64,000 bases of DNA. It comes from Candidatus Thioglobus sp. GTDB lineage: Bacteria; Pseudomonadota; Gammaproteobacteria; PS1; Pseudothioglobaceae. Under the pieces are notes generated by a model. The model ran no database searches. It was given only the letters and a program-made list of their open reading frames with translations, and was not told the DNA's origin. A program made the position numbers and the translations under genes. Positions 32,392 through 39,125 of the stretch are shown here, one piece after another; position 1 is the first letter of the stretch; each line of letters opens with the position of its first letter. The stretch lies in the NCBI GenBank assembly GCA_028228555.1, contig JAOJBP010000007.1:1-64000 (forward strand), given 5' to 3'.

Positions 32392-33579
32392 TTATATATG
32401 ATCAAAAATATTTCCAGGAACATGAACTGTTCCTTCCATTAAAACTCTTGCACTACGGCTCATAACCACCTTATTTACAGTCCAGTCACCATTTTCTTGC
32501 ATTGCCTCTGCGCCCACTTTTAGCGATCCAGATGGATGCCCAAAAGTAACATTTTCACGTTCGCCACCACCTGCAGCAAGGTTAACTAACGTTCCAGGAA
32601 TGGTTGCTGCAGTTCCAATAGCTACTGCAGCAGTGCCCATCATAGCATGATGCAATAATCCCATTGATAAAGCTCGAACATTAAGATCAATATCACTTGC
32701 ACTGATCTCTTTGCCACTTGAGCAAATGTAACTTTTGGCTTTACTGACAAAAGCAACTTTAGGCGTATGTTGGCGACCCGCAGCTTGTTCAATGCTATTT
32801 ATCAAGCCCATTTTTATAGCGCCATAGGCGCGAATACTTTCAAACATTGTGAGTGCTTTTTCGTTACTATTAATATCAACCTGTAATTCTGTGCCTGTGT
32901 AATTAATTGAATCAGCATTCAAGAAGATTGTTGGAATACCTGCATTAATCATAGTTGCCTTAAATGTGCCAACACCTGGGACTTCTAAATCATCTACCAA
33001 ATTTCCAGTCGGGAACATAGCGTCGCTAGCATCCACAGGGCTTATAAACTCAACTTGAACCTCTGCGGCTGGAAACGTCACTCCATCTAATTCAAAATCA
33101 CCAGTTTCTTGAACCATGCCATTAGTCATTGGGACTTTAGCAATGATGGTTTTATTAATATTTGCCTGCCAAATACGAACAGTCGCAATGCCATTTTGTA
33201 TAACACGATCAGCATCAACCAATCCATTGCTGATTGCAAAAGAGCCAACTGCAGCTGTCAAATTACCACAATTACCACTCCAATCAACAAACGGCTTATC
33301 AATTGAAACTTGGCCAAAGAGATAATCAACATCATGATCGCTTTTTAGACTTTTCGATAAAATAACAGTTTTACTGGTACTTGAAGTTGCACCACCCATG
33401 CCATCAGTTTGCTTAGCATATGGATCAGGACTACCAATCACACGAAGTAACATTGCATCGCGAGCAGGGCCAGCAACTTTACATATTTCAGGCAGATCTT
33501 CAAGATTAAAGAAAACCCCTTTGCTGGTGCCACCGCGCATATAGGTTGCAGGAATCTTGATTTGAGGTGCAAAAGACAT
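32392..33579 (-). CDS. prpF: 2-methylaconitate cis-trans isomerase PrpF
   Basis: Isomerises the 2-methyl-trans-aconitate made by AcnD to the cis form usable by aconitase. Family marks: ATYMRGGTSKGVFF near the N-terminus, DGMGGATSSTSKTVIL, SGNCGNLTAAVGSFAI with a catalytic Cys, and AAGGGERENVTFGHPSG. I start at 33579 (MSFAPQIKIPA, 395 residues); the start ATG shares one base with the acnD stop (TAATG), a coupled-translation arrangement. An in-frame ATG 31 codons earlier lies inside acnD and adds no family sequence. Confidence 0.95.
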   Translation of the reverse strand: MSFAPQIKIPATYMRGGTSKGVFFNLEDLPEICKVAGPARDAMLLRVIGSPDPYAKQTDGMGGATSSTSKTVILSKSLKSDHDVDYLFGQVSIDKPFVDWSGNCGNLTAAVGSFAISNGLVDADRVIQNGIATVRIWQANINKTIIAKVPMTNGMVQETGDFELDGVTFPAAEVQVEFISPVDASDAMFPTGNLVDDLEVPGVGTFKATMINAGIPTIFLNADSINYTGTELQVDINSNEKALTMFESIRAYGAIKMGLINSIEQAAGRQHTPKVAFVSKAKSYICSSGKEISASDIDLNVRALSMGLLHHAMMGTAAVAIGTAATIPGTLVNLAAGGGERENVTFGHPSGSLKVGAEAMQENGDWTVNKVVMSRSARVLMEGTVHVPGNIFDHI

Positions 33580-36194
33580 TATGCATTTTCCTCTAAAAAG
33601 TCTTGAGCAAATCTTTGTAGTACGCCACCAGCAGAATAAACATGTGCTTCTTGCGCTGTATCTAAGCGACATTTAACAGGGATGTTTTTCGTCTCGCCAT
33701 TAGTGCGTGTCATCTTCACTATTAATGAAGATCCTGGCGCTATATCACCTTCAACATCAAATGTTTCAGTGCCATCGATGCTGTAAGTGGATCGTGTTTC
33801 ACCATTAATAAATTCAAGTGGAAGAACACCCATGCCGACTAAGTTTGTACGGTGAATGCGTTCAAACCCTTCCGCGATAATCGTTTCAACACCTGCTAGA
33901 CGAACGCCTTTAGCGGCCCAGTCACGTGATGATCCCTGCCCATAGTCAGCACCTGCAATAATAATTAATGGCTGTGCACGATCCATGTAAGTTTCGATTG
34001 CTTCCCACATGCGCATTTGTTCACCTTCTGGCTCAACACGCGCAAGAGAGCCTTGTCTAATCTCTCCGGTTTTTCCATCAGCACCATCACGACACATTTC
34101 ATTTAACAACTTAGGATTTGCAAAAGTTGCGCGTTGTGCTGTTAAGTGATCACCACGGTGAGTTGCATAGGAATTAAAGTCTTCTTCTGGTAAGCCCATT
34201 TTATGCAAATAAGCACCAGCAGCACTTTCTAACATAATTGCATTTGAAGGAGATAAATGGTCTGTTGTGATATTGTCACCAAGCACTGCAAGAGGACGCA
34301 TACCTTTCATGGTTCGCTCACCAGCTAGTGCACCTTCCCAATAGGGAGGTCGTGTAATATAAGTACTTTTATCATCCCAATCATATAAAGGACTCTTTGC
34401 TCCTTGTATAACTCCAAGATCAAACATTGGATTGTAAATTTGATGAAACATTTCAGGTTTAACACTTGCTTTTACAATGACATCAATTTCTTCATCCGTA
34501 GGCCAAATGTCTTTTAAGGTAATAGGATTACCGTCTTTATCATTACCTAAGCTATCTTGCTCAATATCAAAACGAATGGTTCCTGCAATAGCATAAGCAA
34601 CCACTAATGGCGGCGATGCTAGGAATGCCTGTTTTGCATAAGGGTGAATTCGACCATCGAAGTTTCGATTCCCAGATAGAACTGCTGTCGCATATAAATC
34701 ACGCTCAATAATTTCATCTCGAATAACAGGATCAAGTGCTCCAGACATACCATTACAAGTAGTACATGCAAAACCTACAATACCAAAACCAAGCGTTTCA
34801 AGTTCACTCAGTAGACCAGCTTCTTTTAAGTAAAGTTCTGCAACCTTTGAGCCCGGTGCAAAAGATGTCTTAACCCAAGGCTTACGAATCAAGCCAAGCT
34901 CATTTGCTTTACGTGCCACTAATCCAGCAGCAACAACATTGCGTGGATTGGAAGTATTTGTACAGGATGTAATTGCGGCGATAATAACCGCACCATCAGG
35001 CATTTTGCCTTCAGCTTCTTCAGCTTTTGCTTTATCCAAGTCCTTTGCGATGCCGCTTGATACAAGATCAGCAGTTGCTAGACGGCGATGAGGGTTTGAC
35101 GGACCAGCCATATTACGCTCAACTAATGACAAATTAAAGCTAAGAACTCGCTCATAGTTCGCATCAATTAGATCATCCGCCCAAAGACCTGTTTCTTTAG
35201 CATAGTGCTCAACTAAAGCCACTTGTTTAGGCTCACGACCTGTGAGCTTTAAGTAGTCAATGGTTTGTTCATCAATATAGAACAAACCTGCTGAAGCACC
35301 ATATTCAGGTGTCATATTAGAGATTGTTGCGCGATCTCCAATGGTTAAACCCTTAGTTCCCTCACCAAAAAACTCAAGGTAAGCTGAGACTACTTTTTGG
35401 TTACGCAAGAACTCAGTGATCGCTAGAACTACGTCTGTTGCAGTAATACCTTCCTGGCGTCTACCAGTAAGCTCAACACCAATGATATCGGGTACACGCA
35501 TCATCGATGGCAGACCCAGCATAACAGTTTCAGCTTCTAATCCGCCCACACCTATTGCCATAACGCCTAATGCATCAATGTGTGGTGTGTGTGAATCAGT
35601 ACCGACGCAAGTATCAGGAAATGCAATACCTTCACGAGCTTGAATAACTGGCGACATTTTTTCCAAATTAATCTGGTGCATAATGCCGTTACCCGCAGGA
35701 ATTACGTCAACATTTTGAAAAGAAGTTTTACACCATTCAATAAAATCAAAACGGTCTTTATTTCGGCGATCTTCAATAGCGCGGTTTTTCTCAAATGCAT
35801 CTGGGTCAAAACCAGGTGCCTCTACTGCCAGTGAATGATCAACAATTAACTGAGTTGGAACTACCGGGTTAACCTTAGAGGGGTCGCCACCTTGATCTGC
35901 AATTGCATCGCGCAGGCCAGCTAAATCAACTAAAGCTGTTTGACCTAAAATATCATGACAAACCACACGAGCTGGATACCAAGGAAAATCTGAATCTTGC
36001 TTATTCTCGATCAGTTGTTTAAGTGACTCTGTAAGATTTTCTGGTTGACAGCGACGAACAAGCTGTTCAGCTAGAATACGAGCAGTGTAAGGGAGTTTGA
36101 CATAAGCGCCAGGTGCTATATCTTCAATTGCTTGACATGTGTCGAAGTAATCTAAATCTGTGCCTTCAAGTTTTTTTCGGTAATTGGTATTCAT
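33579..36194 (-). CDS. acnD: Fe-S-dependent 2-methylcitrate dehydratase AcnD
   Basis: Aconitase-superfamily enzyme dehydrating 2-methylcitrate. The three [4Fe-4S] cysteines appear in SCTNTSNP and CTTCNG. Other landmarks: VCHDILGQTALVDLAGLRDA, PDTCVGTDSHTPHIDALGVM, HLSPSNAIM, and DYGQGSSRDWAAKG in the swivelling C-domain. 871 residues, as in Shewanella-type AcnD; the prpF partner immediately after fixes it as AcnD rather than AcnA. Starts 31 bases after the prpC stop. Confidence 0.95.
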   Translation of the reverse strand: MNTNYRKKLEGTDLDYFDTCQAIEDIAPGAYVKLPYTARILAEQLVRRCQPENLTESLKQLIENKQDSDFPWYPARVVCHDILGQTALVDLAGLRDAIADQGGDPSKVNPVVPTQLIVDHSLAVEAPGFDPDAFEKNRAIEDRRNKDRFDFIEWCKTSFQNVDVIPAGNGIMHQINLEKMSPVIQAREGIAFPDTCVGTDSHTPHIDALGVMAIGVGGLEAETVMLGLPSMMRVPDIIGVELTGRRQEGITATDVVLAITEFLRNQKVVSAYLEFFGEGTKGLTIGDRATISNMTPEYGASAGLFYIDEQTIDYLKLTGREPKQVALVEHYAKETGLWADDLIDANYERVLSFNLSLVERNMAGPSNPHRRLATADLVSSGIAKDLDKAKAEEAEGKMPDGAVIIAAITSCTNTSNPRNVVAAGLVARKANELGLIRKPWVKTSFAPGSKVAELYLKEAGLLSELETLGFGIVGFACTTCNGMSGALDPVIRDEIIERDLYATAVLSGNRNFDGRIHPYAKQAFLASPPLVVAYAIAGTIRFDIEQDSLGNDKDGNPITLKDIWPTDEEIDVIVKASVKPEMFHQIYNPMFDLGVIQGAKSPLYDWDDKSTYITRPPYWEGALAGERTMKGMRPLAVLGDNITTDHLSPSNAIMLESAAGAYLHKMGLPEEDFNSYATHRGDHLTAQRATFANPKLLNEMCRDGADGKTGEIRQGSLARVEPEGEQMRMWEAIETYMDRAQPLIIIAGADYGQGSSRDWAAKGVRLAGVETIIAEGFERIHRTNLVGMGVLPLEFINGETRSTYSIDGTETFDVEGDIAPGSSLIVKMTRTNGETKNIPVKCRLDTAQEAHVYSAGGVLQRFAQDFLEENA

Positions 36195-36225: not shown

Positions 36226-37386
36226 CTAGCCACGATCAGCTAAAGCGACAAATTCAAGATTCTCAGGACCAATATAGTTGGCCGATGGACGAATGATCTT
36301 TCCATCTTGACGTTGTTCAATTACGTGAGCACCCCAACCTGTGGTTCGTGCAATAACAAATAGCGGCGTAAACATCGCTGTTGGAACACCCATTTGCTCA
36401 TAAGAAACTGCCGAGAACCAATCTAGATTTGGAAACATTTTCTTTTCATCCATCATGACTGTTTCAATACGCTCAGCAACATCAAACATGGTCATATTTT
36501 TATTAGACTCAGAAAGTTGTTTTGCAACACGCTTGATCACTTCATTGCGTGGGTCAGAAACCGTGTAAACAGGATGTCCGAAACCAATGATAATCTCCTT
36601 ACGAGCCATGCGTTCACGAATATCAGCCTCAGCTTGATCAGCATCTTTATAGCGCTTTTGGATTTCAGAGGCAACTTCGTTTGCTCCACCATGCTTTGGC
36701 CCACGTAATGCACCAATAGCACCTGTAATACAAGAGTGAATATCTGATCCAGTGCCTGCGATGACACGACCTGCAAATGTAGAAGCATTAAACTCATGCT
36801 CTGCATAAAGTATCAAAGAAACATGCATGGCTTTTACCCATTCCTCAGAAGGTGACTCACCATGAAGCATGTGTAAGAAATGGCCACCAATTGAATCGTC
36901 ATCTGTTTCTGTTTCAATGCGTTTATTATTATGGCTAAAGTGGTACCAATAGACTAGCATTGAACCAAAGCTTGCCATAATACGATCTAAAGCAGCGCGG
37001 GTTTCTTCCTCAGGATGATCATCTTTTTCTGTCATACAAGTACCCATAGCGGAACAACCTGTACGCATCACATCCATCGGGTGTGCTGATTTTGGAATAT
37101 TTTCTAAAATCGTTTTCACAGCAGATGGTAATCCACGCATACCTTTTAATTTAGCTTTATAAGATTTCAGCTGTGAAATTGTTGGTAAGGCGCCATGAAT
37201 AATAAGATATGCAATCTCTTCAAATTCAGCATTTTCTGCAAAATCAAGAATATCATAACCACGATAATGTAAGTCATTACCTGTGCGTCCAACTGTACAT
37301 ACGGCAGTATTTCCTGCTGCTGTCCCTGAAAGAGCTACTGATTTTTTTGGCTTAAAACCTGGCGTTGTTTGTTTTATATCACTCAT
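36226..37386 (-). CDS. prpC: 2-methylcitrate synthase
   Basis: Condenses propionyl-CoA with oxaloacetate. Citrate-synthase-fold landmarks: [15 protein letters not shown]-like [33 protein letters not shown] with a catalytic His, and [15 protein letters not shown] with the second. 386 residues, normal for the short PrpC type lacking the NADH-sensitive N-domain. Its ATG shares one base with the prpB stop. The gene set around it makes methylcitrate rather than citrate synthase the sound reading. Confidence 0.96.
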
Positions 37387-38270
37387 TATGATTTATCCTC
37401 ATTTGCAAATAGTTGGTCTAATTTTTTTTCATACTCATGGTATTCGAGAAAATCATATAACTCCATACGAGTCTGCATAGCATCTACAACATTTTTCTGA
37501 TGACCATCTGCTTTAATATGTTCATAAACATTAAGTGCTGCTTTACTCATCGCACGAAATGCGCTCAATGCATAAAGTTGTAATTGAACGCCAACAGAAG
37601 AAAGCTCTTCAGATGTAAATAAAGGTGTTTCTCCAAATTCTGTGATGTTGGCTAATACAGGCACATCGACCGCTTTAACAAATTGATCATACTGTTCTAA
37701 TGTAATAATAGCTTCTGGAAATATCATATCAGCGCCAGCTTCTACACAGGCTATTGCACGCTCAATAGCAGCATCAATACCTTCAACTGCTAGTGCGTCT
37801 GTTCGCGCCATAATCACAAAATCTGAATCAGTCTTCGCATCGACAGCCGATTTAACACGATCCACCATTTCTTGTTGACTGATGATTGCTTTATTAGGAC
37901 GATGACCACATCGTTTTTGCATAACTTGATCTTCAATATGGACAGCGCCAGCACCCGCACGAGTAAACTCACGAACACATCTGGCGATATTAAAAGCGCC
38001 ACCCCAACCTGTATCAATATCAACCAATAATGGCAACTCAGTTGCATCAGTAATACGGTAAGTATCTTCCAATACATCTTTCATGGTTGTAATACCAAGA
38101 TCAGGAATGCCCATTGAGCAAGCAGCCACACCACCACCTGAAAGGTATATAGCCTTATGGCCAACTTTTTCTGCCATGATGGCTGAGTAGGCGTTTACTG
38201 CACCTACGACTTGTAACGGGTTATTATCCTCTACAGCTTTACGAAACGCTTTACCTGCACTTATACTCAT
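37386..38270 (-). CDS. prpB: 2-methylisocitrate lyase
   Basis: Cleaves 2-methylisocitrate to pyruvate and succinate, the last methylcitrate-cycle step. TIM-barrel landmarks: [52 protein letters not shown] with the diagnostic KRCGH catalytic loop, and [11 protein letters not shown]. 294 residues, normal. It begins 16 bases after the GntR regulator stop and heads the operon prpB-prpC-acnD-prpF-(prpE). Confidence 0.97.
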
Positions 38271-38286
38271 ATTATTCCTCGATTTT

Positions 38287-38961
38287 TTATTTGTCTAATA
38301 AATTTTTTACAATTTTCCATGCGCCACTAATATGTCTACGCATTAATATTTCTGCTAACTCAGGGTCTCTATTATTAATAGCATTAACAATAGCATAATG
38401 ATCATGCAATGCCGGTTCTACTCGAAATGGCATTTGACTACTACGATGACGACACATTCTTAATACTTGATACAACTTGTTGTTTAAATAATCAATTAAC
38501 CATTGATTTTGACATTTGGAAAAAATATAATAATGAAAATCTAAACTACCTTCTTCTTGTAAATAGCGCTTACCTTCTGATTGCTTAATAGATGATTCAT
38601 GTTTTTCCAATAAACGATACAAATTATCGATGTCAGACTGCGACATAGCAACACAAGCCAATCTTGTTGCAAACCCTTCCATTGCTTCACGCATTTGATA
38701 CACATTTTGCATCATAGTAAAGTCCAGAGTGATCACTCGAGAGCCAGAGTGTGGACGACGATCTACCAAATTAATAGATTCTAATTTGTGCAAGGCTTCG
38801 CGTAATGGGCCACGACTAATGTCATACGCTTTAGCAAGCTCTGCTTCACCTATTTTTTGTCCTTGTGGAATAACACCCGTAATGATATCTTCTTTAATCT
38901 GCTGGAATACATGCTCAGATAGAGTGTCTTGTTTTATAGCATGTAAAGCATTAATACTCAT
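38287..38961 (-). CDS. GntR-family (FadR/FCD type) regulator of the methylcitrate operon
   Basis: 224 residues. The N-terminal winged helix reads [43 protein letters not shown]; the C-terminal FCD ligand domain runs from about residue 90, with Asp/His metal or acid-binding residues ([12 protein letters not shown]). First gene of the prp unit, so probably an autoregulated repressor sensing a pathway acid such as 2-methylcitrate. This regulator type replaces the sigma-54-type PrpR of enterobacteria. Two matching palindromes lie in its own control region. Confidence 0.94.
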
Positions 38962-38974
38962 ATTGTCAACAATA
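38961..38974. promoter_or_regulatory. Proximal operator palindrome of the prp regulator
   Basis: TATTGTCAACAATA: six-base arms around CA, abutting the GntR start codon. It matches the general FCD-GntR operator style (TnGT...ACnA). It is inside the predicted transcript leader. Confidence 0.75.
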
Positions 38975-39002
38975 ATTAAAATAATAAATCAAATTAAGCC
39001 AA

Positions 39003-39031
39003 ATTCTACTAAATTAATTAAATATTGTCAA
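39003..39031 (-). promoter_or_regulatory. Sigma-70 promoter of the prp regulator and operon
   Basis: On the minus strand a perfect TTGACA (39026-39031) and TAGAAT (39003-39008) with a 17-base spacer. Predicted start near 38996, about 35 bases before the regulator ATG. The -35 box lies inside the distal palindrome. Confidence 0.8.
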
Positions 39032-39036
39032 CAATA
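39023..39036. promoter_or_regulatory. Distal operator palindrome of the prp regulator
   Basis: Second exact copy of TATTGTCAACAATA, 62 bases from the first (about six helical turns), covering the -35 box. Binding here would block RNA polymerase. Confidence 0.78.
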
Positions 39037-39069
39037 ATAAAATAAAAAATCACTACTTGAATAATTCAG

Positions 39070-39100
39070 GAAAAAAAAATGACGCCCTAAGCGTCATTTT
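39070..39100 (-). terminator. Rho-independent terminator of rpoZ
   Basis: Minus-strand stem ATGACGC/GCGTCAT with loop TTAGG (39079-39097), followed by nine T, 26 bases after the rpoZ stop. Confidence 0.92.
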
Positions 39101-39125
39101 TATTAAAAATAATTTTAGTTAAGTA

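Follow-up and report, generated by a model that had tools for sequence, protein, structure and literature searches.

Two exact copies of one 14-mer, TATTGTCAACAATA, stand in front of the GntR-type regulator gene prpR in the window (the whole stretch of 64,000 nucleotides analysed here), 62 bp apart from centre to centre and in the same orientation. What holds two such sites at this distance, and does the distance itself matter to regulation? The initial annotation described the copies as identical palindromes, the first placed at the -35 box and the second at the start codon, and suggested that the encoded regulator binds both, possibly looping the DNA. These proposals are considered below in the light of the spacing of such sites across the Gammaproteobacteria.

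The twin sites, promoter and operon

The coordinates of the twin sites were confirmed, and a search of the 1.25-Mb genome found them to be the sole exact copies. The nearest named relatives of this genome are uncultured Gammaproteobacteria, Candidatus Thioglobus among them. The copies are identical, but each is only an imperfect palindrome, with perfect 6-bp arms (TATTGT/ACAATA) around an asymmetric CA/TG centre. Base composition alone would give about 3.9 perfect ATTGTNNACAAT sites per genome by chance, and about 0.001 pairs within 100 bp. The remaining perfect ATTGTNNACAAT sites inspected in the genome are single and lie inside open reading frames, so the prp operon seems to be the only target in this genome, and a wider regulon there was rejected on the same grounds. 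The A of the prpR ATG (38961) falls within the proximal copy. Ahead of this ATG, positions 38961-38990 hold no Shine-Dalgarno-like sequence, and the operator sits where one would be expected; the ATG itself is inside the operator in the g282 clade (L075-L079). The near-perfect minus-strand promoter of the initial annotation, with its -35 hexamer inside the distal copy, was borne out (Table 1).

The genes prpR-prpB-prpC-acnD-prpF follow one another in this order on one strand with prpR at their head, and the rpoZ terminator lies between rpoZ and the prp promoter, setting them apart. The mechanically assigned start of prpF runs about 90 bases into the end of acnD (window 32392-33672), and a start deeper in the frame, at MSFAPQ, is more probable.

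Table 1. Features of the prp region, in window coordinates
Feature	Position	Strand	Basis
Distal operator (predicted) TATTGTTGACAATA, core ATTGTTGACAAT	39023..39036	-	exact match; holds -35 hexamer
Proximal operator (predicted), identical 14-mer	38961..38974	-	exact match; abuts prpR start codon
Sigma-70-type promoter TTGACA-17-TAGAAT (17-base spacer)	39003..39031	-	11/12 consensus matches; -35 TTGACA at 39031-39026, -10 TAGAAT at 39008-39003
prpR, GntR regulator with FCD domain, VanR group, 224 aa	38287..38961	-	Pfam GntR + FCD
prpB, methylisocitrate lyase	37386..38270	-	TIGR02317 above cut-off
prpC, 2-methylcitrate synthase	36226..37386	-	NF009006 above cut-off
acnD, 2-methylisocitrate dehydratase	33579..36194	-	TIGR02333 above cut-off
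prpF, 2-methylaconitate isomerase	32392..33672	-	TIGR02334 above cut-off
Intrinsic terminator of upstream rpoZ	39075..39101	-	12-pair stem + T tail

The encoded regulator

The prpR product matches PF00392 and PF07729 above their gathering scores, giving an N-terminal GntR winged helix-turn-helix and a C-terminal FCD domain. In its AlphaFold model (pLDDT 89) the FCD has six helices (81-105, 108-127, 142-148, 153-174, 178-196 and 200-223), as in the VanR group, and the nearest solved structures by sequence and fold are those of PmiR of P. aeruginosa (7xp0/7xp1). By sequence and gene context PrpR groups with the PrpR/PmiR propionate repressors: PmiR is its closest homologue, prpB and prpC are adjacent, and two perfect ATTGT-NN-ACAAT sites lie upstream. 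This core matches ATTGTCGACAAT, the predicted operator of GntR-type PrpR (PMC9765439). A survey of GntR motifs places PrpR in FadR-subfamily groups whose GT and AC stand 2 nt apart (PMC4494728), and the operator here likewise has a 2-nt gap. The core itself is thus already known as the operator of GntR-type PrpR/PmiR; the novelty here is the spacing.

The proposal that the adjacent FCD-GntR regulator binds the twin sites is supported by the known PrpR/PmiR motif and by the way in which pairs track the regulator across genomes, and its autoregulation also appears to be supported. Among the columns that do not vary across 42 orthologues are residues D141, H143, H188 and H210; they resemble an FCD metal site (an acid or Asn plus three His) and may form a putative one. 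The effector may perhaps be 2-methylisocitrate instead of the 2-methylcitrate named initially.

Spacing between the sites

The DNA upstream of the gene was compared for 102 orthologues (39-100% identity), which cover the source family and lineages as far as P. aeruginosa, Acinetobacter, Photobacterium and Pseudoalteromonas; they were picked by similarity, some distant ones may be paralogues, and several loci share one clade and are not independent. A pair was counted where two cores carried at most one mismatch in all, and some pairs use a one-mismatch site. On this definition a pair is present in 93 of the 102 regions, compared with 0.1% of Markov-shuffled copies of the same regions. The distal copy is kept in five congeneric genomes and most orthologues, and the proximal copy is kept in orthologues at a spacing of 61-64 bp. 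A recognisable pair was not found in a few of the 102 orthologues (f111, f141, Halomonas), so there a single site may be enough, or its partner has decayed too far for detection.

The spacings of the 93 pairs fall at 51-53 bp (8 loci), 61-64 bp (80) and 71-75 bp (5), with nothing between, in bins one helical turn apart that correspond to five, six and seven turns. Looping repressors such as AraR and LacI are characterised by operators set whole helical turns apart, and the occurrence of these three ranges only lends support to the suggested looping. With the main class removed, a phase test using one value per family gives p of about 0.004, which rests on seven families, while all distinct values per family give p of about 2e-5, in which related values are counted. 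For these reasons weight is put on the overall picture and on neither p value; beyond the main class there are only 7-12 values, several of them from one-mismatch sites. The orthologue-only phase test is clear; the class-wide version on off-peak pairs, in which chance pairs are counted as well, is less so.

In a scan of 369 genomes spread over the Gammaproteobacteria for TTGTNNACAA cores lying 48-78 bp from one another, 52 pairs were found, and 30 of them stand at 62 or 63 bp, of 31 possible spacings. A pair at 62-64 bp occurs in 22 genomes, and 21 of these encode the regulator orthologue, which only 39 of all 369 genomes have (p 1.5e-22); in the single exception the pair lies inside a coding region. 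The eight genomes classed as having off-phase pairs only are all without the orthologue. All seven genomes with pairs near five or seven turns encode it, with the qualification that at least one of these pairs (G441, in L143) sits inside an open reading frame and may be due to chance. Several 62-63-bp pairs stand before other propionate genes (acnD, prpB, prpE or acs). At one locus (L018:2330-2533), where prpR and a periplasmic-binding-protein gene diverge, the intergenic region holds four cores that make up two separate 62-bp pairs. Genome G315 has 62-bp pairs near aceE/aminopeptidase, a GST-like gene and an oxidoreductase gene (L132:2004-2075, L133:2035-2106 and L134:2068-2139), hinting at a wider regulon with twin-site architecture in that genome.

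Much around the sites varies while their spacing holds. In the six-turn class the inter-site spacing has a standard deviation of 0.6 bp, compared with 8.6 bp for the gap between proximal site and start codon (-1 to 29 nt), where start codons were mechanically assigned and individual gaps may be wrong. Between lineages the inter-site DNA has a median identity of 38%, against 31% expected from composition. The promoter occurs in two registers 20 bp apart, with the -10 offset from the distal core by about 27 or 47 bp. In this genus, f154 and g282, the -10 begins 26-28 bp from the distal core and the distal copy lies on the -35 box, and the same register is found in the g1 and g4 clades. In the g287/g85 clade the -10 is at 47 bp, which puts the promoter 20 bp further downstream; there the -35 follows the distal copy, and the proximal copy spans about +4 to +15. 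Promoter geometry was rejected as the cause of the fixed spacing, since one spacing is common to both registers. The initial description, with a site over the -35 box and another at the start codon, thus holds in this genome, but not as a conserved feature: because promoter position and start gap vary while the spacing stays at 61-64 bp, these overlaps would be a lineage-specific detail, and the conserved unit appears to be the helix-phased double operator.

Readings of the spacing and known systems

We consider it fairly probable, on comparative grounds, that the two palindromes form one composite operator of the encoded GntR/FCD repressor (PrpR, a PmiR orthologue), with a dimer on each core, a dimer of dimers, a loop of about 62 bp and derepression by a cycle intermediate. 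Each 12-bp core would take one repressor dimer and, since the cores are separated by a whole number of helical turns (six), the dimers would face the same side of the DNA and could join as a dimer of dimers. The joined dimers would close the loop and trap the prp promoter in it, the distal copy on the -35 box blocking the entry of RNA polymerase and the proximal copy, at about +23, blocking elongation. A methylcitrate-cycle intermediate would then free the repressor and derepress prpR-prpB-prpC-acnD-prpF. The locked spacing in most of the gammaproteobacterial relatives examined points to a repressor that holds the two sites at once and bends the intervening DNA. Whole-turn, same-face spacing is a signature of cooperative contact between bound dimers, and cooperativity between the two sites can be regarded as well supported by the comparison. 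A dimer of dimers that spans the helix-phased double operator and throws the DNA into a small loop is most likely, judging from this spacing and from the tetramer of Atu1419 and the small loop of AraR discussed below. Counting against a loop is the stiffness of 62 bp of DNA, which would need protein-assisted bending.

Two independent operators, with a distal dimer blocking the -35 box, a proximal one acting as a roadblock or ribosome block, and no contact between them, would suit the positions in this genus exactly. Such operators need no fixed spacing, yet the spacing varies by only about 1 bp and otherwise changes in steps of a turn, and in another clade the promoter has shifted by 20 bp with the pair spacing unchanged. 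A constraint from RNA polymerase would have shifted with the promoter, so the fixed spacing speaks against this as well, and independent operators are unlikely. Phased cooperative assembly without a free loop, in which extra dimers occupy the stretch between the sites or a larger oligomer has the DNA wound around it, is also rather improbable. Same-face spacing fits wrapping equally well as looping, and extra weak boxes have been reported beside GntR-family sites (PMC4494728), but a conserved third site between the two was not found.

The initial annotation also allowed that the proximal copy folds in the leader RNA, and a hairpin there governing prpR translation might be expected from a site that abuts the start codon where no Shine-Dalgarno sequence is seen. 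The leader, however, folds worse than 192 of 200 shuffles, the arms are 4 bp at best with a short loop, and orthologues do not keep the site at a constant distance from the start codon; the hairpin was rejected on its folding and is very improbable. Equally hard to credit is a spacing that was simply inherited and is unconstrained. The orthologues do all derive from one regulator gene, most with prpB adjoining, but the inter-site DNA is near the composition level and flanking distances drift while the spacing stays, its changes are whole-turn jumps, and same-spacing pairs also occur at other target genes. Common descent alone was rejected on the held spacing, the diverged inter-site DNA and the whole-turn jumps.

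The bridged composite operator may extend beyond this genus. It is about an even call whether gammaproteobacterial GntR propionate repressors in general are dimers of dimers closing a minimal loop of about six turns round the promoter, with selection across the class acting on the loop geometry, rather than on where the promoter or start codon lies, and permitting only switches between five, six and seven turns. GntR regulators form one of the largest families in bacteria, and the customary picture of them is one dimer bound to one palindrome; to our knowledge their tetramers and loops have been demonstrated only rarely. Here, sequence alone yields a large natural collection of operator spacings, comparable to a classical helical-phasing experiment, and does so for a regulator whose structure is solved and whose host is tractable. 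The C-terminal domain of AraR, another repressor with a GntR-type DNA-binding domain, is not an FCD.

The closest known system is PmiR/PrpR of P. aeruginosa (PA0797), an orthologue with about 45% identity, the same prpR-prpB-prpC order and the 12-bp motif ATTGTCGACAAT; it represses the prp operon and binds the DNA upstream (PMC9765439). It differs in that one site is described there, 84 bp upstream of the regulator (PMC9765439). The P. aeruginosa sequence (L144:1360-1434) holds this perfect site, ending 84 bp before the start codon, and a one-mismatch copy, ATTGTCGACACA, 63 bp downstream of it and about 21 bp before the start codon. PMC9765439 mentions the first site only, and its 250-bp probe may have contained both copies; a second operator in this well-studied organism has probably been overlooked. 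The predicted PrpR regulon of Shewanella also has a GntR-family regulator of propionate genes (PMC3223726), of the FadR subfamily with a 2-nt GT-AC gap (PMC4494728). A fixed helical double-site spacing is not reported for Shewanella PrpR in these two papers, although the 2012 paper that defined the regulon may already have it. Atu1419 of Agrobacterium fabrum is of the same fold group as PrpR here (VanR-group FCD) and is a tetramer that places two dimers on two palindromes and loops the DNA (PMC7797058); its operators are 109-190 bp apart, its pathway and effector are different, and its identity is about 22%. AraR of Bacillus subtilis shares the GntR-type DNA-binding domain and binds cooperatively to two operators that need to be in phase, forming a small DNA loop (PMC4218819), whereas it controls arabinose genes, responds to arabinose and recognises a different operator sequence.
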